Shown in pieces: positions 6,186-31,214 of a stretch of 36,949 nucleotides of DNA. Under the pieces are notes generated by a model. That model saw only the letters and a program-made list of their open reading frames with translations, made no database searches and was not told where the DNA came from. The stretch lies in IMG/VR virus record IMGVR_UViG_3300025616_000020, positions 1 to 36,949 of that record; one strand, given 5' to 3'. Position 1 is the first letter of the stretch. Every line of letters starts with the position of its first letter. This DNA comes from a virus. The position numbers were made by a program, and so were the translations under genes.

Positions 6186-6884
6186 ATGAGAAAAAAACTA
6201 ACTATAGAATACATAAGATCGGAATTTGAAAAGGAAGGGTATACTCTTCTATCGGAGGAGTATGTTAATAATAAAACTAAGATGGACTATATCTGTTCTA
6301 AAGGTCACAAACATAGTATGAGATGGGGTAGTTGGCATAACAGTAATAGGTGCCCAACTTGTGCTGGGTTATTTAAACTTACTATAGAATATATTAGGGA
6401 ATCATTAGAAAAAGATGGTTACATTCTTTTATCTAAAGAGTATATTAATACTAGTACTAAGTTAGATTACATGTGTAATAATAAACACCAGCATTCTATG
6501 AAATGGAATAAATGGCAACAAGGAAGAAGGTGTCCAATATGTAGAGCTATTAAATTTTCAGGGTCAGGAAATCCAAGATGGTTAGGTGGTGTATCTTATG
6601 AGCCATACTGTGAAATTTGGAAAGATAGAGAATACAAACATGATCTACGTGAACGAGATGGCAATAGATGTTTAAATCCTTACTGTGATTCTAAAAAACC
6701 TGAAGATTTAACTATTCATCACATTGACTATAATAAAAAGAATTGTAGTCCTAATAATCTAATAACAGTATGTAGAACTTGTAATTTTAAAGCAAATATA
6801 GACCGTGATTGGCATACTACATGGTATCAAGCAATAATAAAAAATAGATATGGAGGTGTTAAAAATGCCTATATCAATGACTGA
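6186..6884 (+). CDS. Free-standing HNH homing endonuclease with two Cys-rich modules
   Basis: The 232-residue protein has two copies of an about 58-residue module (residues about 4-61 and 64-121). Each runs from LTIEYIRxxxExxGYxLLSxEY through K-x-DY-x-C-x-KGH to a closing RCPxC pair. Modules of this kind are probably zinc-stabilised DNA-binding units. Residues about 130-225 are an HNH nuclease domain with an ERDGNRCLNPYC knuckle, the IHHIDYNKKNCSP core and a CRTCN pair. It closely resembles the C-terminus of the endonuclease at 21676. No strong ribosome binding site is seen, and its end overlaps the start region of the next gene. It is a selfish element in an intergenic position. Confidence 0.85.
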   Translation: MRKKLTIEYIRSEFEKEGYTLLSEEYVNNKTKMDYICSKGHKHSMRWGSWHNSNRCPTCAGLFKLTIEYIRESLEKDGYILLSKEYINTSTKLDYMCNNKHQHSMKWNKWQQGRRCPICRAIKFSGSGNPRWLGGVSYEPYCEIWKDREYKHDLRERDGNRCLNPYCDSKKPEDLTIHHIDYNKKNCSPNNLITVCRTCNFKANIDRDWHTTWYQAIIKNRYGGVKNAYIND

Positions 6885-11047: not shown

Positions 11048-12730
11048 ATGGCTTTTACAAGTATAGGATCAGATATAACAAAACAGAGATTGTATGAAGG
11101 AATACTATCTCAAGCAATAAATAACGAGTCGATTGACTGGGTGTTTCGGGCTGCCAGCACAGATTTAATTTTGGGTAAGGTTCTTAACAGCCGGTTTAAC
11201 TTAGGTCTCCCAGAGATGGATTCATTGCAAAATACTGCGGCTGTGATTGCCTCTTCCACGGCGATGGCTGCTATTGCTACAAGCACTGCTGGATTATCTG
11301 CATTAGCTGTAACTTTAATAGCTACCAATGAGAGTATGGCTAATGTAGCGTATGGTGTAAAATGGAACACTGCTGCTTCAACACCAGTTCTTACCAAGGG
11401 AATTGTATTAAACAACGCTTTCATACCAGCGGCTTATACCAACTACCCAATACAGTCTCAGATGAAGAGGTGTGTGAAGAACACATCAGGAACTAAACTT
11501 TACGATTTACTATCCACAAATAGTATTTACAAAGCGACAGTAACAACACCACTGAGATCAGGAACTGCAACATCAACAACTGCTGGTAAACTTGTGGATA
11601 CTAATGCGAACTTCACAACTGCTGGAGTAACCATAGGTCACTGGGTTCACAATACTACATCTTGTATCGCAACTCAGGTTACTGCTGTAGATTCAGCAAC
11701 ACAACTCTCAGTAAAACTCGATAGATTCACATCTGGAAATGCTTATAACATAGGTACTGCAAATCCACAGGCAGACGGAGCAGTAATGGTAGAAGTTCCA
11801 GCAACACATTATATAATGTGTACTGATGGAAGTTTAAAGTACTTCTTGATCAAGAACTCACAGTTTACATTTACAAAGTCAGATTCAACTGTCGTAACTT
11901 CTACTCTTCACCCTTTTTTCACGGAGGGCGGTACAAACAGAGCATACCAGTACTGGGGTGCTTTTGAATCTGTATGGTACGATAATGACGGTGGCGGGTA
12001 TAAGAACCATGATGGGTCAACTGTTGCTGCTGCTGGAGATAAAGCAGTTTCCATGCCAGGGTATCAGCCTCTCACGTATCAGACTCGTCCTGAAATGAGA
12101 ACGCTTCACACAGCTTATGGAAGTAGTTTCCACACTGAAAGCTACTACGCTGATGAATTCATAGGTTTGCTTTTCATAACTGAGTTTGGAACATTCAATT
12201 CACAGATAGCTCTACCTGGATACACAGAAGGAACTTGGGTTTACGCTAACACAAGAACCACTGGTAGAACAATGCACCTTGGTAATACTTCTGGGACTAT
12301 AGCTGGAGTATCTGGGTTTGATCCAGGAACTTATAATATTGCTAACTCTTACAGAGGTATCGAAAACTGTTACGGGCACGTCTATAAATGGTTGGATGGT
12401 ATTAACTTCAACTCTCAAAGGATCTACATTAACAACAATCCTAGTACTTGGGCAGAGGATACAGCTACAAACTACACAGACACTGGATTATATCTACCAG
12501 CTTCAGGATACCAGATGAATTTCCATGCAGGACTAATGTTACCATCTACAATTGGAGCGGATTCAGCTACCTATATTACAGATTATGTGTACTCGGAGGC
12601 TGGTTGGATGGCTCTCTTCTCGGGTGGCTTTTTGAATGATGGCGCGTATGCAGGGGTCTTCTATCGGTATGCGGGTAGCGCTGGCTCGTTTCGTGGTGCG
12701 TATTTCGGTTCCCGGTCGGCGGCCGTCTGA
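11048..12730 (+). CDS. DGR variable protein 1 (C-type-lectin-like adhesin)
   Basis: The 560-residue protein starts after ACGGAGG. Residues about 70-110 contain SSTAM/ATSTA/TNESM repeats, like the fibre gene at 31248. Residues about 250-560 have the features of the formylglycine-generating-enzyme/C-type lectin fold used by DGR target proteins: an RPEMRTLHTAYG segment, GIENCYGHVYKWLDG, and a final variable region ending GSRSAAV. Residues about 516-560 correspond to VR1 and differ from the TR-encoded sequence almost only at adenines. The protein is probably a receptor-binding tip diversified by mutagenic homing. Base composition is visibly richer in G+C than the flanking genes, suggesting separate ancestry. 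It is near-identical to 15224-16906 outside the 3' part. Confidence 0.88.
   Translation: MAFTSIGSDITKQRLYEGILSQAINNESIDWVFRAASTDLILGKVLNSRFNLGLPEMDSLQNTAAVIASSTAMAAIATSTAGLSALAVTLIATNESMANVAYGVKWNTAASTPVLTKGIVLNNAFIPAAYTNYPIQSQMKRCVKNTSGTKLYDLLSTNSIYKATVTTPLRSGTATSTTAGKLVDTNANFTTAGVTIGHWVHNTTSCIATQVTAVDSATQLSVKLDRFTSGNAYNIGTANPQADGAVMVEVPATHYIMCTDGSLKYFLIKNSQFTFTKSDSTVVTSTLHPFFTEGGTNRAYQYWGAFESVWYDNDGGGYKNHDGSTVAAAGDKAVSMPGYQPLTYQTRPEMRTLHTAYGSSFHTESYYADEFIGLLFITEFGTFNSQIALPGYTEGTWVYANTRTTGRTMHLGNTSGTIAGVSGFDPGTYNIANSYRGIENCYGHVYKWLDGINFNSQRIYINNNPSTWAEDTATNYTDTGLYLPASGYQMNFHAGLMLPSTIGADSATYITDYVYSEAGWMALFSGGFLNDGAYAGVFYRYAGSAGSFRGAYFGSRSAAV
12594..12729 (+). repeat. DGR variable repeat VR1
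   Basis: Aligned without gaps to the TR at 17021-17156 (offset 4427). Of roughly 28 mismatches that I count by eye, about 26 fall on TR adenines. The exceptions are a C-to-A near the 5' end and a C-to-T at the 3' edge. The ten AAY codons of the TR become F, N, D, Y, Y, G, S, F, G, Y. Non-adenine bases such as the GTCTTCTATCGG core are unchanged. This is the signature of adenine-specific mutagenic retrohoming. Confidence 0.93.
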
Positions 12731-15223: not shown

Positions 15224-16906
15224 ATGGCTTTTACAAGTATAGGATCAGATATAACAAAACAGAGATTGTATGAAGGAATACTATCTCAAGCAATAAATAA
15301 CGAGTCGATTGACTGGGTGTTTCGGGCTGCCAGCACAGATTTAATTTTGGGTAAGGTTCTTAACAGCCGGTTTAACTTAGGTCTCCCAGAGATGGATTCA
15401 TTGCAAAATACTGCGGCTGTGATTGCCTCTTCCACGGCGATGGCTGCTATTGCTACAAGCACTGCTGGATTATCTGCATTAGCTGTAACTTTAATAGCTA
15501 CCAATGAGAGTATGGCTAATGTAGCGTATGGTGTAAAATGGAACACTGCTGCTTCAACACCAGTTCTTACCAAGGGAATTGTATTAAACAACGCTTTCAT
15601 ACCAGCGGCTTATACCAACTACCCAATACAGTCTCAGATGAAGAGGTGTGTGAAGAACACATCAGGAACTAAACTTTACGATTTACTATCCACAAATAGT
15701 ATTTACAAAGCGACAGTAACAACACCACTGAGATCAGGAACTGCAACATCAACAACTGCTGGTAAACTTGTGGATACTAATGCGAACTTCACAACTGCTG
15801 GAGTAACCATAGGTCACTGGGTTCACAATACTACATCTTGTATCGCAACTCAGGTTACTGCTGTAGATTCAGCAACACAACTCTCAGTAAAACTCGATAG
15901 ATTCACATCTGGAAATGCTTATAACATAGGTACTGCAAATCCACAGGCAGACGGAGCAGTAATGGTAGAAGTTCCAGCAACACATTATATAATGTGTACT
16001 GATGGAAGTTTAAAGTACTTCTTGATCAAGAACTCACAGTTTACATTTACAAAGTCAGATTCAACTGTCGTAACTTCTACTCTTCACCCTTTTTTCACGG
16101 AGGGCGGTACAAACAGAGCATACCAGTACTGGGGTGCTTTTGAATCTGTATGGTACGATAATGACGGTGGCGGGTATAAGAACCATGATGGGTCAACTGT
16201 TGCTGCTGCTGGAGATAAAGCAGTTTCCATGCCAGGGTATCAGCCTCTCACGTATCAGACTCGTCCTGAAATGAGAACGCTTCACACAGCTTATGGAAGT
16301 AGTTTCCACACTGAAAGCTACTACGCTGATGAATTCATAGGTTTGCTTTTCATAACTGAGTTTGGAACATTCAATTCACAGATAGCTCTACCTGGATACA
16401 CAGAAGGAACTTGGGTTTACGCTAACACAAGAACCACTGGTAGAACAATGCACCTTGGTAATACTTCTGGGACTATAGCTGGAGTATCTGGGTTTGATCC
16501 AGGAACTTATAATATTGCTAACAGCTATAGAGGTATTGAAAACTGTTATGGTCACATCTGGAAATGGTTGGACGGTATTAACTTCAACTCTCAAAGGATC
16601 TACATTAATAATAATCCTGGTACTTGGGCAGAGGATACAGCTACAAACTACACAGACACTGGATTATATCTACCAGCTTCAGGATACCAGATGCTTCTTC
16701 ATACAGGATTAATGTTACCATCTACAGTTGGAGCTGATTCAGCTACTTATATTACAGATTATGCATACTCGGCGGCTGGTTGGCTGGCTCTCTTATCGGG
16801 TGGCTCTTTGGGTGTTGGCGCGAATGCGGGGGTCTTCTATCGGGCTGCGAATTACGCTGGCTCGGGTCGTGGGGCGGCGTTCGGTTCCCGGTCGGCGGCC
16901 GTCTGA
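15224..16906 (+). CDS. DGR variable protein 2 (C-type-lectin-like adhesin)
   Basis: The 560-residue protein is identical to variable protein 1 for about the first 440 residues. The copies then differ at scattered positions (for example GHIWKWLDG against GHVYKWLDG, and QMLLHTG against QMNFHAG), and most strongly in the VR-encoded C-terminus (residues about 516-560). The lectin-like fold, SSTAM-type N-terminal repeats and GSRSAAV end are shared. Adjacent TR and RT make this the direct DGR target. The protein is probably an alternative receptor-binding tip. Both copies being intact implies that two differently randomised adhesins can be displayed or exchanged. Confidence 0.88.
   Translation: MAFTSIGSDITKQRLYEGILSQAINNESIDWVFRAASTDLILGKVLNSRFNLGLPEMDSLQNTAAVIASSTAMAAIATSTAGLSALAVTLIATNESMANVAYGVKWNTAASTPVLTKGIVLNNAFIPAAYTNYPIQSQMKRCVKNTSGTKLYDLLSTNSIYKATVTTPLRSGTATSTTAGKLVDTNANFTTAGVTIGHWVHNTTSCIATQVTAVDSATQLSVKLDRFTSGNAYNIGTANPQADGAVMVEVPATHYIMCTDGSLKYFLIKNSQFTFTKSDSTVVTSTLHPFFTEGGTNRAYQYWGAFESVWYDNDGGGYKNHDGSTVAAAGDKAVSMPGYQPLTYQTRPEMRTLHTAYGSSFHTESYYADEFIGLLFITEFGTFNSQIALPGYTEGTWVYANTRTTGRTMHLGNTSGTIAGVSGFDPGTYNIANSYRGIENCYGHIWKWLDGINFNSQRIYINNNPGTWAEDTATNYTDTGLYLPASGYQMLLHTGLMLPSTVGADSATYITDYAYSAAGWLALLSGGSLGVGANAGVFYRAANYAGSGRGAAFGSRSAAV
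16770..16905 (+). repeat. DGR variable repeat VR2
   Basis: Aligns without gaps to the TR. About 29 TR adenines are substituted, and I see only three non-adenine changes: two T-to-G, both at third positions of AAT codons, and one C-to-T at the 3' edge. The TR Asn codons become S, G, V, N, A, N, Y, G, G, A. VR2 also differs from VR1 at many of the same positions, so the two repeats were diversified independently. Confidence 0.93.
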
Positions 16907-17020: not shown

Positions 17021-17156
17021 CGGCAGCTAGTTGGATAGCTCTCTTATCGAGTGGCAATTTGAATAATGGCACGAATGCAGAGGTCTTCTATCGGAATGCG
17101 AATAACACTAGCTCGAATCGTAATGCGAATATCGGTTCCCAGTCGGCAGCCACCTG
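17021..17156 (+). ncRNA. DGR template repeat (TR)
   Basis: This non-coding template lies between variable protein 2 and the RT. Read in the variable-protein frame it carries ten AAY (Asn) codons at exactly the positions that vary in VR1 and VR2, flanked by unvaried codons such as GTC TTC TAT CGG. It is transcribed and reverse-transcribed with adenine infidelity, and the cDNA replaces the VR. A frame can be translated through it, but that is a by-product of homology to the variable proteins. The shared 3' end, from CGGTTCCC onward, would hold the initiation-of-homing region. Confidence 0.92.
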
Positions 17157-17271: not shown

Positions 17272-18249
17272 ATGAAGAGACAATTAAATCTATATACAAA
17301 AATCTATGATATAGAAAACATAAGATTAGCGCACAAGAACGCACAAAAAGGAAAATCAAAGTATTCAGAAGTTAAGATGGTTAACGAAAATCCAGAAAAA
17401 TACATTCTTGAAATTCAAGAATTGCTTAAAAACAAAACCTTTAAAAACTCTGAGTACGAAGTATTTAAGAGGTTAGACAGAGGAAAAGAAAGAGAGATAT
17501 TCAAACTCCCTTATTTTCCAGATAGAATTATTCACCACTGTATTATGCAAGTTCTTGAACCTATCTGGATGAAGATATTCATACAAGACACTTATGCTTC
17601 TATGAAACATAGAGGGATTCATACTGGTGTAAAACGCATGAAACTTTTTCTTAAAGATGAAGTAAATACACAGTATTGTTTAAAGATGGATATTAAGAAA
17701 TTCTATCCATCAATAAATCATGACATTCTTAAGAAGATAGTAAGGAAGAAAATCAAGTGTAAAGATACTCTTTGGATTTTAGATGAAATAATTGACAGCG
17801 CGAAAGGACTACCAATAGGGAATTATTTGTCACAATTTCTCTCAAATTTGTATTTAGCTTATTTCGATCATTGGATAAAAGAAGAAAGAAGTGTTAAATA
17901 TTATTCCAGATATTGTGATGATATAATTGTTCTTCATGACAGCAAAGAGTTTCTTCACACCTTATTAAAAGACATTAAGCATTATCTTGAAACAAATTTA
18001 AATCTCATGGTTAAGCACAACTGGCAAATTTTTCCAACCAAAATAAGAGGGATAGACTATCTTGGATATAGATTTTTTGGGAATTACACATTAATCAGAA
18101 AATCTATATCTAAAGAATTTCTTTTTAAAGTTAAAAACTTAAATTTTAAATGTCTCACAAAAAGTAATGTTTGCTCACTCATGAGTTATTTCGGATGGAT
18201 AATTCATGGTAACGGATACAACCTGTTAAAACAATTCAAAAAGATTTAA
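17272..18249 (+). CDS. DGR reverse transcriptase
   Basis: The 325-residue RT has the catalytic aspartate at D140 in LKMDIKKFYPSIN, the DGR-type motif IGNYLSQ (182-188, SQ instead of the SP of group II intron RTs) and the catalytic YCDD box at 214-217. A thumb-like segment with DYLGYRFF follows near residues 263-272. There are no X/maturase, RNase H or endonuclease domains, and the length is typical for DGR RTs. It lies about 115 bases after the TR with no other gene between. It would copy TR RNA into adenine-mutated cDNA. Confidence 0.95.
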   Translation: MKRQLNLYTKIYDIENIRLAHKNAQKGKSKYSEVKMVNENPEKYILEIQELLKNKTFKNSEYEVFKRLDRGKEREIFKLPYFPDRIIHHCIMQVLEPIWMKIFIQDTYASMKHRGIHTGVKRMKLFLKDEVNTQYCLKMDIKKFYPSINHDILKKIVRKKIKCKDTLWILDEIIDSAKGLPIGNYLSQFLSNLYLAYFDHWIKEERSVKYYSRYCDDIIVLHDSKEFLHTLLKDIKHYLETNLNLMVKHNWQIFPTKIRGIDYLGYRFFGNYTLIRKSISKEFLFKVKNLNFKCLTKSNVCSLMSYFGWIIHGNGYNLLKQFKKI

Positions 18250-18470: not shown

Positions 18471-20330
18471 ATGGAGTATAGCTCAATTGAACAGGTAACA
18501 TCTACGTTACAAGAAAAATATCCAGATATAGGGATTCGTTCTATAGAGGTTGATGAAAGTTCAGGTAAATCTACTTTTTTTATAGAGCCGACTAAAAAAA
18601 GTTTAGCTTTCTTAGACGCTAATAAAGGTGGAGTTGTACCTAGAATATATAGCAAAGAACGTGCTGCTAGTATTACTAGAGATTATTTACAACGAACCAA
18701 TTTAGATCTACTTCCTCCAAATGATCCATATACTGAGGATCCTAAAGAATCGTTTAAACGAGCTATACGTTATTATTATACAGAACCTTTAGTTGGATCA
18801 ACTACTAATGTTTTGGCTAGTTTAGCTAGGAAAGGGTTTGAAAATGACATCGATGATGAGAATATAAAGCAATTTTTTGATGTATGGACATTTGATGTAA
18901 ACTTCGATGAAATTTTAGAATGGATATTTCTAGATTTTTTTAAAGTAGGGCATGTTACTACTTATAAAGTATTGGCAAAATATGAACCACGTGTTTCGTA
19001 TTTATCTCCTGTTCCTGGTCAAAAAATGAAAACTAATAAAAAAACCGCGAGCGAAGAAACAGCAGCTAAAAAATCAATATGGTCAAAAGGATTTTTACCT
19101 GTAGCATATACAGTTCTAAATCCTTTATTAGTTAATATAACAGGAAATTTATTATTTGATAGTGTATCAACAAAAATAACACCCCCACCAGAATTAACAG
19201 AACTTCTTAAAAAACCTTCTGGAGAACAAACAGAAGATGAAAAAAATCTTTTAAAAACACTACCTTCTGATTTAAAGAATGCTGCGCAAAAAGGTGGAGA
19301 GTATCAACTTGATAGTAGACTAGTAGGTCACATAACTTATAGAAAGCAACCATACGAGCGCTACGCGAAGCCTAGGAGCACTAAAGTATTTGATAGCATA
19401 GAGTATAAGAAAGCTCTTAGACAAGCCGATATAAGCACGCTAGACGGCATCAGTAACTACATCCTTAAGATAACCATAGGTAATGACGAGTATCCTGTAG
19501 TATCTCAGGAAGAATTAGAAGCTGTTGCTCAGTTATTTAATACCCCTAGCAAGGCGATCGACGTCGTATGGAATCATACTTTAGAAATAGAAAAGATTGT
19601 ATCACCAGAAATTGACAAGATTTTAGGCAAGGGTAAGTATGAACAGGTTAACGATGACCTAACTACCGGACTTGCTATATCCAGAGCAATTATAGATGGT
19701 GGTGGTGGGCTTAATGCTGCTGAAGTTGATCTACTTACTAAAGGACTTATGGAGGAGATTAACTATGCTAGGAGACAGGTAACTCGTTGGATTTACAGAG
19801 AATATCAGCAAATAGCAGAAGCAATGGGTTTCGATCGTTTTCCAAAGATCCGATGGGATGACGGTGTGTTACTCGATACAATTCTCTATATGAATACACT
19901 TGCACAAATAGTGGATCGTAGAATGTTGAGCTACAGAACATCAATTGAAGCCCTTGGTTTTGACTATCCAACAGAGCTAAATAATATGACTGAAGAATTG
20001 CCGCTAGTAGAAGCTGGTACAATTGGTATTATAGGTTCACCTTTCCAAAAATCAGCAACAGGTCCTGGAGCTCCATCTAGTGGTCCTCCTAAGGGTCAAG
20101 TAAAAAAGAAAACTACAACTCCTCAAGTAGTTAAAAAATCTGACGTTTCTCCTAATCAACAGAAGAAAAATAAACAAGTTAAACAAGCTGCATCTGTAAA
20201 TGATGAAGATGTTATAGACATGTCTGCTGCTGAATATGATGTTTTTTTGGAGGGCGCCAAAGAAAATTTAGATTATGATGATTATATCGATTTTCTAGAT
20301 GAGATGGGTAGGATTAGATATGGCAATTAA
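18471..20330 (+). CDS. Portal protein
   Basis: The 619-residue protein starts after AGGAG. Size, position between terL and the capsid protease, and internal features support a portal: an acidic N-terminal wing, a central region with a YRKQPYERYAKPRS segment, long helices around residues 380-500 (NYARRQVTRWIYREYQQIAE) and a charged, Pro/Lys-rich C-terminal tail. Portals form the dodecameric DNA channel of the capsid and dock the terminase. In other phages terL and portal are usually adjacent, but here about 7.7 kb of DGR and fibre DNA separates them. Confidence 0.75.
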   Translation: MEYSSIEQVTSTLQEKYPDIGIRSIEVDESSGKSTFFIEPTKKSLAFLDANKGGVVPRIYSKERAASITRDYLQRTNLDLLPPNDPYTEDPKESFKRAIRYYYTEPLVGSTTNVLASLARKGFENDIDDENIKQFFDVWTFDVNFDEILEWIFLDFFKVGHVTTYKVLAKYEPRVSYLSPVPGQKMKTNKKTASEETAAKKSIWSKGFLPVAYTVLNPLLVNITGNLLFDSVSTKITPPPELTELLKKPSGEQTEDEKNLLKTLPSDLKNAAQKGGEYQLDSRLVGHITYRKQPYERYAKPRSTKVFDSIEYKKALRQADISTLDGISNYILKITIGNDEYPVVSQEELEAVAQLFNTPSKAIDVVWNHTLEIEKIVSPEIDKILGKGKYEQVNDDLTTGLAISRAIIDGGGGLNAAEVDLLTKGLMEEINYARRQVTRWIYREYQQIAEAMGFDRFPKIRWDDGVLLDTILYMNTLAQIVDRRMLSYRTSIEALGFDYPTELNNMTEELPLVEAGTIGIIGSPFQKSATGPGAPSSGPPKGQVKKKTTTPQVVKKSDVSPNQQKKNKQVKQAASVNDEDVIDMSAAEYDVFLEGAKENLDYDDYIDFLDEMGRIRYGN

Positions 20331-21549
20331 ATTAACTATAGAACAAATAAAAGAAATATTTGAAAAAGATGGCTATATTTTAGTTTCTAAGGAATATAAA
20401 AATTGTTCTACTAAACTAGAGTATAAATGTCCTAAAGGACATGAATATTCAATTACTTGGAATGGTTGGAGACAAGGTAATAGATGTGTTATATGTGCAG
20501 GACTATTAAAGTTAACTATAAAACAGGTTAGGGAATCATTTGAAAATGAAGGTTATACTTTATTAACTAAAGAATATAGTGGTAATAGAAGTGAGTTAGA
20601 TTATATTTGTCCTAATGGTCATAATCATAAAACTGAATGGTTTACTTGGGGACCTATGAAACGTAGATGTCCTTCTTGTTCTAATAATGTTAAATCTACA
20701 ATAGAAGAAATTAAATTAAGTTTTGAACAAGAAGGTTATACTCTTTTATCTAAAGAATACATTAATAATCACACTAAATTGGATTATACTTGCCCTAATG
20801 GGCATGATCATAGTGTAGTGTATGCAAGTTGGAAATATGGTTATAGATGCCCACATTGTAGTAAAATTAAAGTTGTAATACCTAACATGGATCATGCAAA
20901 CGTAATAGTAGATGGAATAATATATAAAGTTACAAATATTGTTAATGGTAAGATTTATATAGGACAGACTATTAATACATTAGAATATAGAAAACACGGT
21001 CATGAAAAAAAATCTCGGAGCAAAAAGAATATTAGTACTTGTTTTCATAAGGCTATTAAGAAATATACGCCTGAAAACTTTAAATGGGAAATTTTAGAAT
21101 ATTGTAACTCTAAAGATGAATTAGATGAAATGGAGTTTCATTATATAAAACAATATAATTCTTTTAATCCAAATGGTTATAATATGACATTTGGTGGAGA
21201 GGGTACAATTGGTAGGGCATGCGCTCAGGAAACAAAGGATAAAATATCTGCTAGTAAAGTAGGAAAATTATTATCTGAAGAACATAAACAAGTATTATCT
21301 GATATGAGACGTGGTGTACCTAAAAATAAACAACACGTATTAAATGTCGCTAAAGCTAAAAGTCAATATTGGTCTATAACTTACCCAGATGGTATAAACA
21401 AAATTATTAGAAACTTAAGTGAATTTTGTAGATATAATAATTTAAGTGATAGAGGAATGTGGTTAGTAGCTAATCAATTAAGAACCCATCATAAAGGATT
21501 TAAGTGTAAAAAACTAACATGCGAAGAAATATGTAACTTAAAAAGTTAA
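20320..21549 (+). CDS. GIY-YIG homing endonuclease with three Cys-rich modules
   Basis: ATG 20320 is chosen. It overlaps the portal stop by 11 bases, and GGTAGG lies just upstream. The 409-residue protein has three of the about 58-residue Cys-rich modules (about 4-61, 64-121, 125-181), then a GIY-YIG nuclease domain (IYKVTNIVNGKIYIGQT at about 201-217, with a downstream Arg-His and an E in EMEFHYIKQ). A NUMOD3 motif and a C-terminal helical DNA-binding tail follow. The overlap with portal places it as a free-standing homing element riding on an essential gene. The same modules are fused to HNH nucleases at 6186 and 21676. Confidence 0.88.
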   Translation: MAIKLTIEQIKEIFEKDGYILVSKEYKNCSTKLEYKCPKGHEYSITWNGWRQGNRCVICAGLLKLTIKQVRESFENEGYTLLTKEYSGNRSELDYICPNGHNHKTEWFTWGPMKRRCPSCSNNVKSTIEEIKLSFEQEGYTLLSKEYINNHTKLDYTCPNGHDHSVVYASWKYGYRCPHCSKIKVVIPNMDHANVIVDGIIYKVTNIVNGKIYIGQTINTLEYRKHGHEKKSRSKKNISTCFHKAIKKYTPENFKWEILEYCNSKDELDEMEFHYIKQYNSFNPNGYNMTFGGEGTIGRACAQETKDKISASKVGKLLSEEHKQVLSDMRRGVPKNKQHVLNVAKAKSQYWSITYPDGINKIIRNLSEFCRYNNLSDRGMWLVANQLRTHHKGFKCKKLTCEEICNLKS

Positions 21550-21675: not shown

Positions 21676-22539
21676 ATGGCTATTAAACTAACCTATGATA
21701 CAGTAAGAGAATCTTTTGAAAGTAAAGGGTATACTCTATTATCTACAGAATATGTTAATAATGCTACTAAACTGAATTATAAATGTCCTAATGGACATGA
21801 ACATAGCATTACATGGAATAGTTTTTCACAAGGAAAAAGATGTTCAACTTGTTCTGATACTAAATTAACTTACGAGTTCGTAAAGGAATCTTTTGAGAAT
21901 GATGGATATATCTTAGGTTCTAAAGAATATATCAATAATAAAACTAAATTAAGTTATGAATGTTCTAAAGGTCATAAACATTCTATGAAGTGGGATAATT
22001 ATAAACAAGGTAAAAGATGCCCAACTTGTGTTGGTTTATCTAAACCCATTATAGAATATATTAGGAATTCTTTTGAAAAAGAAGGATATGTTTTGTTGAC
22101 TACAGAATATATAAATAGTAAAACTAAATTGGATTATATATGTTCTAGTAATCATGAACATAGTATGAGATGGAATGGTTGGCAACAAGGACAGAGATGT
22201 CCTACTTGTGCTGATATTAAACATTCCATTAAATACTCAGGAAGTAATCATCCATCCTGGAAAGGTGGAATATCTTACGAACCATACTGTCCAATTTGGA
22301 GCGATAAAGAATACAAACAAGATATACGTAATCGTGATGGTAATAAGTGTTTAAATCCGACTTGTAAAAAGAAAGACCATAGACTACATATTCATCATAT
22401 TAATTATAACAAGAAAAGTTGTAGTCCAAGTAATGTAATAACTCTATGTGGAAGTTGTAATACTACCGCTAACAATAATCGTGAGTGGCATACAGCTTGG
22501 TATAAAGCACTTATGTATATGAGATACAATTATAAATAA
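21676..22539 (+). CDS. HNH homing endonuclease with three Cys-rich modules
   Basis: ATG 21676 follows GGAG. The 287-residue protein contains three modules of the same kind as at 6186 (about 4-60, 62-119, 122-180), each with a GH-x-HS and a closing RCPTC-type pair. A C-terminal HNH domain follows (NRDGNKCLNPTC, IHHINYNKKSCSP, CGSCN). The HNH part is paralogous to 6186-6884, down to the GG-SYEPYC-IW linker. The first codons (AIKLTYD) contain an exact copy of the TATTAAACTAACCT box at 21681-21694. It is a free-standing homing element between the GIY-YIG endonuclease and the capsid protease. Confidence 0.87.
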   Translation: MAIKLTYDTVRESFESKGYTLLSTEYVNNATKLNYKCPNGHEHSITWNSFSQGKRCSTCSDTKLTYEFVKESFENDGYILGSKEYINNKTKLSYECSKGHKHSMKWDNYKQGKRCPTCVGLSKPIIEYIRNSFEKEGYVLLTTEYINSKTKLDYICSSNHEHSMRWNGWQQGQRCPTCADIKHSIKYSGSNHPSWKGGISYEPYCPIWSDKEYKQDIRNRDGNKCLNPTCKKKDHRLHIHHINYNKKSCSPSNVITLCGSCNTTANNNREWHTAWYKALMYMRYNYK

Positions 22540-25759: not shown

Positions 25760-25942
25760 ATGGATCTTAAAGAAATGCAAGAATTATTTAAACAAACGGC
25801 GAATATCCAAACGCCAGAGGGTTTAGCAGCGTATCGTGCTTTTGCTGCGGCTCTAACAACTCCAATTTTGCAGAAGATTGAACTGGAATCGATTATGCGT
25901 CAGCTGTTTGCCGTAGAACGGCTTGCAGCTGGTGCTCAGGCT
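25760..25942 (+). CDS. Major capsid protein, exon 1
   Basis: ATG 25760 lies after AAAGGAGGAG. Exon 1 encodes 61 residues (MDLKEMQELFKQ to LAAGAQA) and ends with T25942 in CAGGCT. The frame stops immediately afterwards (TAA), as expected when an intron follows. Joining exons 25760-25942, 27051-27079, 27319-27721 and 28836-29291 gives 1071 bases, a continuous 356-residue protein of normal size for an HK97-fold capsid protein. Confidence 0.85.
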
Positions 25943-27050
25943 TAATGACATCTACGGGAGATGTATGGTCTGATTAAATCTTGCTATATGCTGGAAAACT
26001 CTAAAGCCGTCCTTTGCTGACATGCAATAATAAGGAGGATATATGGATAATCAGCAAGTAACTTCAATAAATAATAATTATTTTGCTGGGCTAATAGATA
26101 GTGACTTTGGTGTGTATCTTACTAAAAATACATATAAAGGTAAACTAAGTATTAGACCTAGAATTTGTTTTGTAAATACTAGGTTTGAATTAATAGAAGT
26201 AAGTTCATCATTTTTAAAATCTAATAATATAAATCATCATGTTGGGTTAGAAAAAGCTACTATAGGTAGAGATCATAAAAGAATACAGATTATACGACTT
26301 GATAAATGTATAGATTTTGTTGATAAATGGTCTCATTTTAGTATAGTTAGACGACCCCAACTAGAATTATTAAAAGAATTTTGTATAGGTAGGGTTAAGT
26401 ACGTTAATGAAGAAGGATGGAAATTTAATAATACACCTTATACAGAAGAACAAAAAGATTTATTTGATGAAATACAACAACTTAATTTAAATTATAATAG
26501 AGATGATGGTTATAGAAATAAAACTTTTTCTTGGTTAGCTGGTATGATAGATGGTGATGGTTCTATATATTTTAGTGATACACATAGAAATACTAAATAT
26601 AAAGATACTATATATACATATAGAAAAATTACACCTTATTTAAAAATAACTACTGAATCACATACAGCCTTAAATAATATAAAAGAAATATATGATAGTC
26701 TTAACATAAGATACTATATTGAAGAGGTTAGAGGTAAATTAAGTAAAAAAATTAAAAACAAGGTGTTTAAATATCATTATAATATAGTAGTTAAAGAATT
26801 TGACCCGTTGCTAATTATTCTTAATAAACTTAATGGTAAGTTAATAGCTAAACAAAAACAATTAGAACTTATGATTGAATATATAAATTCTAAAAATAAG
26901 AATATACATTATACAGATGATGTGTATAATATAGTTAGTAAATTAAAACAATTAAATAATAATTATTGAAGATACTTCAGAGACTAATACGCAAGACACC
27001 ATAAGGTGAAGATAGAGTCCATTTATTATGGAAACATAGTATATTCAATG
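25943..27050 (+). ncRNA. Group I intron 1 (about 1.1 kb, carries endonuclease)
   Basis: P1 can be drawn between exon CAGGCU (ending at 25942) and intron GGUCUG (25967-25972), with the required U.G wobble at the splice site. P10 pairs 3' exon GUAUAU (27051-27056) with AUGUAU (25961-25966), adjoining P1. Core pieces of the T4 td-like IA type are present: AUGCUGGAAAAC near 25988, AAUCAGCAA near 26048, CAGAGACUA at 26978-26986 and GUGAAGAUAGAGUCC at 27006-27020. The intron ends with G27050. A LAGLIDADG gene fills the interior. Confidence 0.85.
26043..26969 (+). CDS. LAGLIDADG homing endonuclease in intron 1
   Basis: The 308-residue protein starts after AAGGAGG and has two LAGLIDADG motifs, YFAGLIDSDF near residues 13-22 and WLAGMIDGDG near 165-174, spaced as in single-chain enzymes. 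The first Asp/Glu in each motif coordinates the metal. The surrounding DNA-binding saddle is Lys/Asn-rich and very AT-rich in codon use, unlike the capsid exons. The enzyme should cut intronless capsid alleles at the exon 1/exon 2 junction to drive intron homing. Its first codons overlap the conserved AAUCAGCA intron core. Confidence 0.88.
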   Translation: MDNQQVTSINNNYFAGLIDSDFGVYLTKNTYKGKLSIRPRICFVNTRFELIEVSSSFLKSNNINHHVGLEKATIGRDHKRIQIIRLDKCIDFVDKWSHFSIVRRPQLELLKEFCIGRVKYVNEEGWKFNNTPYTEEQKDLFDEIQQLNLNYNRDDGYRNKTFSWLAGMIDGDGSIYFSDTHRNTKYKDTIYTYRKITPYLKITTESHTALNNIKEIYDSLNIRYYIEEVRGKLSKKIKNKVFKYHYNIVVKEFDPLLIILNKLNGKLIAKQKQLELMIEYINSKNKNIHYTDDVYNIVSKLKQLNNNY

Positions 27051-27079
27051 GTATATCCTGTGGCTGAAGATTTCGAGAT
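27051..27079 (+). CDS. Major capsid protein, exon 2 (29-nt mini-exon)
   Basis: The 29 bases encode VYPVAEDFEI, with the last codon split (AT before intron 2, T after it). They are bounded by two independent group I introns. Both boundaries are supported by P1 and P10 pairings and by restoration of one reading frame into exon 3 (PVWVLPGLG). Without this exon the capsid frame cannot be continuous. Confidence 0.8.
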
Positions 27080-27318
27080 TTCGTAAGGAGTTTCGTAACC
27101 TAACTAAATGCTGGAACATCTCAAGATTTTAATTACTGATATGTAATAATATTAAAGATGAGACAATCAGCAGGAAACCTTATTAAGGATTCCTCAGAGA
27201 CTACATGTTAGGCACTTAATTGTGAAGATATAGTCCGAACTTATATGGAGACATATAGAAGTAGTTTCGCAACTACTCGCCTAAATTATTTATTTAGGTC
27301 ATAAAAGTAACAGATTTG
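27080..27318 (+). ncRNA. Group I intron 2 (about 239 nt, no ORF)
   Basis: P1 is exon CGAGAU (27074-27079) with intron GUUUCG (27090-27095), U.G at the splice site. P10 pairs 3' exon UCCU (27319-27322) with AGGA (27086-27089), contiguous with P1. The core includes AAUCAGCAGGAAACC at 27165-27179, CUCAGAGACUACA near 27194 and GUGAAGAUAUAGUCCGAAC at 27222-27240, a near-textbook T4 td-like set. The intron ends with G27318. It carries no endonuclease and so may depend on another for mobility. Confidence 0.87.
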
Positions 27319-27721
27319 TCCTGTTTGGGTTTTGCCTGGGCTTGGTTATATTGCGCAAAACTTTATCGAGGGTATTGGTGAAGAGGTATATGTACCTACT
27401 TTTACCATCGATACATCTGCAGATTGGAAGATTACATATGCGAGAGATTCTCGTATAGATATTGCTCAGAGAGCTGCTGCTCGTGCGGCTAAGGAACTTG
27501 CTAATTACGAAGAGGAATGCGGATGGAGAGTTATTATGCCTGCTGCAACATCTTCGTTTTCAGGTAAGGGTCTTTTAGGCTCTAGACCTGCTCCGATTTA
27601 TGAAATCGTACCTGCATCTTCAGGTGCTGGTTATCTTTCTAAGGAGCTTATTAACAAGATGATCGTAGGTTTTAAGAGAATTGGTCGTACATTTACCGAT
27701 CTCTACTTGTCACCAGAGGAT
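27319..27721 (+). CDS. Major capsid protein, exon 3
   Basis: The frame continues from exon 2 as I-PVWVLPGLGYIAQNFIEG. It encodes about 134 residues with the Arg/Asp/Ala-rich helix (RDSRIDIAQRAAARAAKE) and ends with DLYLSPED at T27721. The TTG-started frame that appears to begin at 27332 is an artefact of the splice. The reading after 27721 (KMCPAFA, stop) belongs to intron 3. Confidence 0.85.
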
Positions 27722-28835
27722 AAAATGTGTCCCGCTTTTGCGTAAGTAAAAGATGAAAAAAGAACTATATGCTGGAAGTTCTCGTTAGGTTCTAAATACT
27801 TAACCTACTTTATAGTAAGGAAGTAAAAATTTTAGAAATAGAGATAATCAGCAGGAAAGGTAAATTAAATATGAAAAAAATAGAAGTACCTGATAAAGAT
27901 GTTTTATATAAATTATATACTACTGATAATAAATCAATGTCTGATATAGCAGTTATATATAATACATCTACTATGACTGTAAGATCTTGGCTTAATAATC
28001 TTAAAATAATTACAAAAATTTCTAATGTAAATATTTATAAAGAATTAAGAACTACAGATTTTAGTAAAAATCAAATTGATCTACTTATAGGATCAATTAT
28101 GGGAGATGGTAATTTAAGAATTCCTAAACATGGTAAAAATGCTTCTTTTAGTGAAAGACACTGTGAAGAACAACGAATGTACCTTGAATGGAAAAGAAAT
28201 TTATTAATGCCTTTTGTACAAAGTGATTTATGTATAGAAGAAGGTGGTGTACATACAATATCAGGTATAGAATGTATAGTTCAAAAATCATATAAATTAG
28301 CGACAGTGTCTCATCCATTTTTAACTGATTTATGGATGAAATTCTATAAAGGTAATGGTAAAAAGATTTTACCAGATAACTTTGATGAACTACTTAATTT
28401 ATTTATATTAGCAGTATGGATATGTGATGATGGTTCATTGGTATGGAATTCTATAAGAAGAAATTATAGAATAGATTTACACACTGAAAACTTTACATAT
28501 GATGAAATAGTTAAAATAGTTAGAACTATCCATACATTATTTGATGGTAATATAATTATTATACCAAGAAAATATGAAAGTGGTATAAAGTATTATATTA
28601 GTTTAAGAGGTAAAAAGGAATTACATTCAATATGTAAAATTATGATTGATTTTGTTCCTGAGTGTATGAAGTACAAATTTATAACTCATATTTAATTTGA
28701 ATCCTCAACGACTACATGTTCTTCCCCACTTTGTGGGTGATGATATAGTCTAAGCTATATGGAGACATATAGAAGTAGTTTCGCAACTACTCGCCTAAAT
28801 TATTTATTTATTTAGGTCATAAAAGTAATAGATTG
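27722..28835 (+). ncRNA. Group I intron 3 (about 1.1 kb, carries endonuclease)
   Basis: P1 is exon GGAU (27718-27721) with GUCC (27729-27732), U.G at the site, followed by a CGC-UUUU-GCG hairpin at 27733-27742 as P2. The core has AUGCUGGAAGUUCUC near 27769, AAUCAGCAGGAAA at 27845-27857, and CUCAACGACUACA near 28704, then GAUAUAGUCUAAGC. The intron ends with G28835. No convincing P10 is seen. The last about 75 bases are nearly identical to the end of intron 2. Confidence 0.82.
27871..28695 (+). CDS. LAGLIDADG-type endonuclease in intron 3
   Basis: The 274-residue protein starts after AGGAAAGG. It has an N-terminal helix-turn-helix (residues about 10-48, SMSDIAVIYNTSTMTVRSWL) and then the divergent LAGLIDADG_2-type motifs LLIGSIMGDGNL near 76-87 and LAVWICDDGSL near 189-199. 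It is unrelated in sequence to the enzyme in intron 1, so the two introns were invaded separately. It should cut at the exon 3/exon 4 junction of intronless capsid genes. Confidence 0.87.
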   Translation: MKKIEVPDKDVLYKLYTTDNKSMSDIAVIYNTSTMTVRSWLNNLKIITKISNVNIYKELRTTDFSKNQIDLLIGSIMGDGNLRIPKHGKNASFSERHCEEQRMYLEWKRNLLMPFVQSDLCIEEGGVHTISGIECIVQKSYKLATVSHPFLTDLWMKFYKGNGKKILPDNFDELLNLFILAVWICDDGSLVWNSIRRNYRIDLHTENFTYDEIVKIVRTIHTLFDGNIIIIPRKYESGIKYYISLRGKKELHSICKIMIDFVPECMKYKFITHI

Positions 28836-29291
28836 GCGGCTGATATTAGAGAGTGGACAGATACTGATATTGATCCTGTAACCAGACGTGAGATTTTTCA
28901 GGCTGCTGGTATGGGTTCTATCTGGAATGTAAGACTTCACGAAATTCAGCACCTTGGTGCAACTGGGCTTTATAACATTAATGGTCACGCTTCTGCTTAC
29001 GGCAAGTTTATAGCCGACGCTGGAGAGAGCTATAATGCTTATACTATTGAAAACCCAAATGTAACAAATGCTGATGGAACAATTGGTACTTTAGGTGAAA
29101 CTCAGGTTATGGGGTTTGATATGACGACTAATGATTCACTAGTAATGCCCATCAGAAAGGAATTTGAGGCTATCGATGATCCGACGTTGCTGCGTATGCA
29201 GAAGCAGGGCTTTTTTGGTTGGGCCGAATTGGGATTTGCATGTTTGGATTCCAGAATTTTGGCGCTAGGGGTTATTGACAGGAGTTTATAA
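28836..29291 (+). CDS. Major capsid protein, exon 4
   Basis: The frame continues from ...SPED into AADIREWTDTDIDPVTRRE and runs to the TAA at 29289-29291, encoding 151 residues. It includes GMGSIWNVRLHEIQHLGA and the C-terminal QKQGFFGWAELGFACLDSR that close an HK97-like P and A domain. An apparent TTG start at 28833 is the last intron bases, not a start. Codon use is less AT-biased than in the introns' genes. Confidence 0.85.
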   Translation, partial: AADIREWTDTDIDPVTRREIFQAAGMGSIWNVRLHEIQHLGATGLYNINGHASAYGKFIADAGESYNAYTIENPNVTNADGTIGTLGETQVMGFDMTTNDSLVMPIRKEFEAIDDPTLLRMQKQGFFGWAELGFACLDSRILALGVIDRSL

Positions 29292-30401: not shown

Positions 30402-31214
30402 ATGGTAATAACATATAATGATGACGGATTGGAGAATTTAGATAGTTTTTCATATATCTATAGTAGAGATATATTTAAAAAATATAATCTTTATTTTAAA
30501 TTTGTATTAAGTTGTAAAGAATGTGGTGAATCATTTTTTATGAGATTAACTTATCCTACTAATTTATGTAGTAAAAAATGTGCTCATAATTCCAAAGAAG
30601 TTAGGGCTAAAATATCTAAATCATCAATTGGTCGTATAAAAAGTGAAGAAGAAAGACGATCTATATCAATAAGAAAGTCAAAGGGTGGTGTAGTAGTTAA
30701 TAATATTCCGCTATTCAAAACTTATAGTAATCAACTTGTAGGTATTGAAGAGATAAGAGATAATGAAGGGGTACTTCAAGCTAAATGCTCTGTTTGTAAA
30801 GAGTGGTTTAGTCCAAAAAGGACAACTGTGGAAGCTAGAGCACAGTTTATAAAAGGTAATATTAATAGAGAAAGTAGATTTTATTGCTCTGAGGAATGTA
30901 AAATAGCGTGTCCAATTTTTAATAAACATACATATTCAAGAGGGCATAATCCAAGAAAAAGTAGAAATAACAATATAGTAACTGAAAATCAACTAAGAAT
31001 ATGGTCATCTGAGGTATTAAAAAACAATGATTATTTATGTGAATTTTGTGGTCAAACTGCTACTGAATCACATCATGTAATACCTAAGAAATTAGCGCCA
31101 TTTTTTGCATTAGATCCAGATAATGGAGTAGCTTGTTGTCAGAATTGCCATTATAAATATGGTCATAATGGTAGTTGTTCTACTGTTAGTTTATCACAGA
31201 TACAATGCTCATAA
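30402..31214 (+). CDS. HNH homing endonuclease with NUMOD3-like motif
   Basis: The start follows ACAGGAATAAATT. The 270-residue protein has an N-terminal zinc knuckle (CKECG, then CSKKC), a NUMOD3-like stretch (RAKISKSSIGRIKSEEERRS) and a middle region with further cysteines. The C-terminal HNH domain has CEFCGQTATESHHVIPK and CQNCHYKYGH. The HNH type differs from those at 6186 and 21676, so it is a separate lineage. It lies directly after the EDxHD endonuclease, making a small cluster of homing genes behind the capsid gene. Confidence 0.78.
   Translation: MVITYNDDGLENLDSFSYIYSRDIFKKYNLYFKFVLSCKECGESFFMRLTYPTNLCSKKCAHNSKEVRAKISKSSIGRIKSEEERRSISIRKSKGGVVVNNIPLFKTYSNQLVGIEEIRDNEGVLQAKCSVCKEWFSPKRTTVEARAQFIKGNINRESRFYCSEECKIACPIFNKHTYSRGHNPRKSRNNNIVTENQLRIWSSEVLKNNDYLCEFCGQTATESHHVIPKKLAPFFALDPDNGVACCQNCHYKYGHNGSCSTVSLSQIQCS

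Follow-up and report, generated by a model that had tools for sequence, protein, structure and literature searches.

A phage major capsid gene probably split by three group I introns, with a 29-nucleotide mini-exon

How can a phage make its major capsid protein (MCP) from a gene that lies in four separate pieces, one of them only 29 nucleotides (nt) long? This question is raised by a locus in IMG/VR record IMGVR_UViG_3300025616_000020, an uncultivated phage represented by a stretch of 36,949 bases that is referred to here as the window. Judging from sequence comparison with viral relatives, we consider it highly probable (roughly 0.9) that the locus represents a working major capsid gene into which three self-splicing introns of group I are inserted, and that the mini-exon results from introns having landed next to each other (Table 1).

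Joining the four exons yields one open frame as proposed in the initial annotation, and the arithmetic is exact with 183, 29, 403 and 456 nt adding up to 1071 nt, or 356 amino acids plus a stop codon. The spliced protein could be aligned end to end with the uninterrupted proteins of ca. 80 viral contigs (80-92% identical), and DNA-level alignment across all three junctions contained no insertions or deletions in ten uninterrupted homologs. Junctions 1 and 3 each have a single solution at the nucleotide level. Junction 2 slides by 1 nt and its position was selected by the rule that the 5' exon ends in U and the intron in G. In the window, U closes all three 5' exons and G closes all three introns; dropping this rule from the spliced alignment gave no better score for the window, and the rule was cost-free in 17 of 19 alleles. 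The window exons carry neither frameshifts nor premature stops. Over the first 780 nt, comparison of the spliced gene with the nearest intact gene (contig L002) gave 0.73 synonymous (dS) and 0.036 nonsynonymous (dN) substitutions per site and a dN/dS of ca. 0.05; as judged from these rates, selection on the capsid exons is strongly purifying. A junction-type peptide of the spliced protein is VYPVAEDFEIPVW.

The spliced protein matched PHROG 2522 (major head protein) with E=4e-10, a family also matched by 30 of 30 homologs tested, and the match to Pfam Phage_capsid reached E=0.1 only. Terminase and portal genes are located near the split gene. By this profile match of moderate strength together with the gene neighborhood, the product appears to be a phage major capsid protein, in line with the original call. 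No capsid homologs were found among 50,697 phage records. Contigs that carry homologs include some that were binned with Geobacteraceae, WOR-3 and Fermentibacteria.

Covariance-model searches, which had been put forward as a check, were carried out using Rfam model RF00028 and a model (R1) derived from the aligned cores of 27 introns from this capsid gene family. Intron 2 matched RF00028 at 27070-27258 with 72.6 bits (E=7.8e-19, P1 included), exceeding the gathering score of 50. Intron 3, which is split by its own open reading frame (ORF), reached 36.4 bits at 28613-28772, under the cut-off, and intron 1 was matched by R1 only. R1 matched all three introns and detected introns nowhere in the window outside the capsid gene. 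Rfam scans of the whole window and of a 3.8-kb stretch missed every intron, probably due to search filters; because intron 2 surfaced only in a 300-nt slice, a negative Rfam scan does not show that introns are lacking.

Table 1. Coordinates of the exons, introns, guide sequences and intron-encoded endonucleases of the split capsid gene.
Feature	Length	Position	Strand	Remarks
MCP exon 1	183 nt	25760..25942	+	encodes amino acids 1-61; collinear with uninterrupted homologs
Group I intron 1	1108 nt	25943..27050	+	MCP site 183; R1 matches 25977-26111, 26950-27049
Intron 1 guide GGUCUGA		25967..25973	+	P1 with exon 25936-25942, 7 bp (UCAGGCU/GGUCUGA), terminal U.G
Intron 1 LAGLIDADG endonuclease ORF	308 amino acids	26043..26969	+	Pfam Hom_end E=1.7e-5
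MCP mini-exon	29 nt	27051..27079	+	VYPVAEDFEI, final codon split; gap-free alignment to homologs
Group I intron 2	239 nt	27080..27318	+	MCP site 212; RF00028; R1 144 bits
Intron 2 guide GUUUCG		27090..27095	+	P1 with exon 27074-27079, 6 bp (CGAGAU/GUUUCG)
MCP exon 3	403 nt	27319..27721	+	collinear with uninterrupted homologs
Group I intron 3	1114 nt	27722..28835	+	MCP site 615; R1 matches 27770-27858, 28614-28780
Intron 3 guide GUCC		27729..27732	+	P1 with exon 27718-27721, 4 bp (GGAU/GUCC)
Intron 3 LAGLIDADG_2 endonuclease ORF	274 amino acids	27871..28695	+	Pfam E=4.3e-28; between core elements Q and R
MCP exon 4	456 nt including stop	28836..29291	+	collinear with uninterrupted homologs

The P1 helices with a terminal U.G pair that had been drawn for all three introns held up at 7, 6 and 4 bp, and P10 pairings can be formed for introns 1 and 2. 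In intron 1, the 7 nt located 5' of the guide are able to pair with 27051-27057 (7 bp), and in intron 2, 27086-27089 can pair with 27319-27322 (4 bp). P10 of intron 3 has 3 bp as judged by eye, two of them G.U; P10 length is likewise variable in other alleles. The LAGLIDADG enzymes of introns 1 and 3 had been described as unrelated and indeed match different families. Like its counterpart in intron 3, the ORF of intron 1 sits between core elements Q and R, in the P6 loop. A 78% identical ORF is present in contig L082 which, along with L232 and L175, also carries an intron at site 183. For the intron 3 endonuclease, no relative was found in viral contigs, and intron 2 contains no ORF of at least 80 amino acids, agreeing with its description as enzyme-free.

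Covariation provides further evidence for the drawn helices P3, P4, P5, P7, P8 and P9, in which 96.6% of cells were paired across the 27 introns. Changes on both sides were counted in 147 cells, compared with 36 in shuffles and 16-39 when partners were slid, and the covariation score of 0.544 (vs 0.149) was reached by none of 500 shuffles. P3, P5, P7, P8 and P9 covary while P4 is invariant and hence uninformative. For P1, seven pairs of exon and internal guide sequence positions showed compensatory changes among alleles; at site 212, base -6 of P1 occurs as C-G, A-U and U-A. When guide sequences were permuted among alleles of one site, the observed pairing was reached in 0 of 2000 trials. Because the exon side of the covarying P1 is protein-coding, each intron's guide is tied to its own exon. 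The RF00028 match of intron 2, the U/G ends with P1, and the covarying helices all point to the three window introns being group I introns.

An allele search that combined scans for junction patterns (two), for the 3'-end motif and for site 267 with an exon-1 search and spliced dynamic-programming alignment returned ca. 20 distinct intron-bearing capsid alleles. Their introns occupy about 13 sites in the coding sequence (nt 174, 183, 194, 198, 212, 241, 267, 281, 412, 606, 615, ~630 and ~640). Among 80 relatives sampled by exon 1 alone, 21 are interrupted downstream, several of them being copies of one virus. The most heavily split gene, in L232, has at least seven introns in total, located at 183, 194, 212, 267, 412 and 606 with a seventh starting near 630 (35.8 bits against RF00028, below the cut-off), and its exons include pieces of 11, 18, 55, 145, 194 and ~24 nt. 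Of the short exons, that of 11 nt is the least secure because P1 of the intron at site 194 is only 3 bp long. Other relatives have exons of 14 nt (L310), 24 nt (L274) and 26 nt (L166), and L082 has two consecutive exons of ca. 29 nt, with the 3' end of its third intron uncertain by 3 nt. Introns lie on either side of the 29-nt mini-exon stretch in L082 as well as L232; in L232, an additional intron splits it into 11 and 18 nt. The four-intron gene of L320 was also found in L318 and L323, both from other samples. The codons that hold intron sites are conserved (0.959 vs 0.888, p < 1e-4), and the sites are clustered, with 8 of 12 within 110 nt (p = 2.5e-4), as expected if the endonucleases target sequence that is unable to drift. 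On this comparative evidence, the capsid gene of this uncultivated phage clade is an intron hotspot. The third intron of L082 (5280-6009) ends in AATAATG/TAGCCC, its final G being either shifted by 3 nt, at the loss of one amino acid, or mutated; for this reason, an early spliced alignment that cut the intron in two was put down to the U/G rule and discarded.

With respect to mobility, intron 2 of the window and its L232 counterpart are 94% identical whereas their exons are 75% identical, which suggests that the intron at 212 moved laterally between lineages. Intron-free alleles are represented by the ca. 80 uninterrupted homologs. None was found to be near-identical to any intron-bearing gene, so that spliced cDNA or a very recent gain could not be shown. 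Endonucleases encoded in introns 1 and 3, the existence of intron-free alleles and the apparent transfer between lineages are all features expected of mobile introns.

Two further observations concern the intron sequences themselves. The 3' ends of introns 2 and 3 (P9 to end, ca. 75 nt; 27250-27318 and 28760-28835) are nearly identical while their 5' halves differ, and the L232 introns at 212 and 267 likewise have near-identical 3' ends, suggesting that 3' domains have been exchanged between introns of one gene. Exact copies of the 3'-end motif GGTCATAAAAGTAAYAGATT (27299-27318) are present in 88 viral stretches, the majority of which lack this capsid gene. In intron 1, the ribosome site AAGGAGG of the endonuclease (region 25990-26050) lies in the P5 arm where it could pair with UCCUU, and ribozyme folding may thereby silence the enzyme, comparable to the reported effect of a hairpin on I-TevI (PMC3073962).

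We propose that every intron would fold as its own ribozyme, cut after the U of its U.G pair and ligate the flanking exons, giving a single capsid mRNA from four exons. The LAGLIDADG homing endonucleases most likely spread introns 1 and 3 into intron-free capsid genes, with intron 2 as a putative ORF-less relative. The mini-exon would then simply be the gap left where two mobile introns inserted at a distance of 29 bp within the gene's most conserved stretch, rather than a designed device. The first ~7 nt of the mini-exon would be used by P10 of intron 1 and the last 6 nt by P1 of intron 2, leaving ca. 16 nt free; since these pairings are placed at opposite ends, both ribozymes can use the mini-exon. 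In all 37 introns analyzed, an in-frame stop precedes P4 and comes sooner than stops in the other frames (p = 1.5e-6), and this stop at the start of each intron would halt ribosomes ahead of the ribozyme core. Early in-frame stops are a known intron feature, said to keep ribosomes off the core (PMC3073962, PMC3984707). We infer that the introns splice in vivo, that the endonucleases are active and home, and that splicing does not depend on a set order.

A far-reaching extension of this proposal would have at least seven introns excised from one highly expressed capsid mRNA, with 11-nt exons near the lower limit that P10 plus P1 would impose, and with the stops making ribosomes enforce a 5'-to-3' order. 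Capsid genes usually rank among the phage genes with the highest expression. We regard the combined claim as improbable.

Splicing around 29 nt had initially been described as sterically demanding and perhaps ordered or regulated, for which we found nothing in support. Ca. 16 nt of the mini-exon would stay free, relatives have exons of 11, 14 and 18 nt, and in phage Twort an exon of 23 nt is placed between two group I introns (PMC10136302). Such control, which we hold to be quite unlikely, could consist in ribosome stops driving loss of the introns from 5' to 3' or in exon skipping that tunes capsid output. In-frame stops are present near every 5' splice site, and ribosomes are reported both to aid the splicing of group I introns and to halt at codons of this kind (PMC3073962, PMC3984707), but the sequence contains nothing that sets an order. 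Skipping is known from phage Twort orf142 and engineered tandem introns (PMC10136302), and the near-identical 3' ends of introns 2 and 3 could favor swapped pairing. However, the guides of introns 1 and 2 differ, which is reported to favor inclusion (PMC10136302), and single skips are unproductive, with loss of the mini-exon giving an 81-amino-acid and loss of exon 3 an 85-amino-acid truncated product; skipping both stays in frame but removes 144 amino acids. As its product is an 81-amino-acid truncation, mini-exon skipping is likely to be costly to the phage rather than a form of regulation.

Several points weigh against a functional capsid gene carrying three self-splicing introns. Capsid identity rests on one moderate profile match and neighborhood, and an AlphaFold2 model built with 30 capsid homologs as input was unusable (predicted local distance difference test score 37). 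P1 of intron 3 has only 4 bp and its P10 is weak; P1 helices at sites 241 and 412 are comparable in length. The sample statistics count related sequences as independent. Finally, the window is a 36.9-kb linear fragment, and a second intact capsid gene may lie elsewhere in the genome. The last point and the weak P1 of intron 3 would also fit a decaying pseudogene in a phage whose virion is built from another capsid gene. Strong purifying selection, exons free of frameshifts and stops, P1 guides that track exon changes and ca. 20 distinct intron-bearing alleles with open exons make this very unlikely. An assembly artefact is least probable of all, even though the material is entirely metagenomic and L232 is a single contig ending inside the gene, since the same junctions were recovered from independent samples (three contigs with introns at 183 and 212, three with the four-intron gene, four each for the L175 and L208 types) and fall on group I splice sites, which is not what chimeras would produce.

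Elsewhere in the window, a diversity-generating retroelement (11048-12730, 15224-16906, 17021-17151 and 17272-18249) comprises a reverse transcriptase, a template repeat and two target genes. The targets are near-identical genes of 560 amino acids. Within their last ~130 nt, mismatches to the template fall almost solely on template A (24 of 24 in one gene and 28 of 30 in the other). Free-standing ORFs resembling HNH or GIY-YIG homing endonucleases are located at 6186-6884, 20299-21549, 21676-22539 and 30402-31214, three of them with repeated N-terminal motifs.

The split capsid gene is a further case of a known phage phenomenon, with Twort orf142, crAss-like phages and mycobacteriophage LittleE as precedents. 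Twort orf142 contains three group I introns and a 23-nt, possibly skipped exon between two of them (Landthaler and Shub 1999, via PMC10136302). It thus shares with the window three group I introns in one phage gene and a very short exon, and differs in having two highly similar introns, a short exon that is removed or retained and a gene of unknown function. Introns 1 and 2 of the window are unlike in sequence and guide, and LAGLIDADG ORFs are present in both of its larger introns. The report on the crAss-like Zeta group describes a capsid gene in five fragments with group I intron domains in three of the four gaps (PMC7886860), again a split capsid gene in a clade with very dense introns, but in another phage lineage. 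Its sections consulted give no account of exon ends, P1 pairing or micro-exons; the clade described here reaches at least seven introns in L232. For LittleE, splicing of the capsid intron was proven by reverse-transcription PCR and N-terminal sequencing (PMC3706429). That major capsid gene intron resembles those of the window in its U/...G ends and LAGLIDADG frame, while being the only one in its gene, with an opposite-strand endonuclease and no mini-exon. The sections consulted on Bastillevirinae (PMC11878797) and Jug phages (PMC12363816) report genes with two or three group I introns, RNA reads supporting 37 of 76 predicted introns in the latter; unlike in the window, the genes concerned are chiefly those for polymerase, terminase and reductase, and those sections do not mention any exons of 11-29 nt. 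Mirusvirus morphogenesis genes show that virion genes can be enriched for introns with homing endonucleases (PMC12768974), although these introns are spliceosomal and the viruses infect unicellular eukaryotes. In the literature library searched, we found no description of ca. 13 sites, at least seven introns per gene or exons down to 11 nt.

In conclusion, the clade is an extreme variant of something known in phages. About a quarter of its sampled capsid genes are split; the introns use ca. 13 sites and number up to seven per gene, and there are exons of 11-29 nt. Split capsid genes of this kind are missed by gene callers, and mini-exons are invisible to ORF finding. The clade lends itself naturally to studying how tandem group I ribozymes keep tiny exons from being skipped and how short an exon can be, and it also poses the question why homing introns accumulate in the codons that are most conserved.

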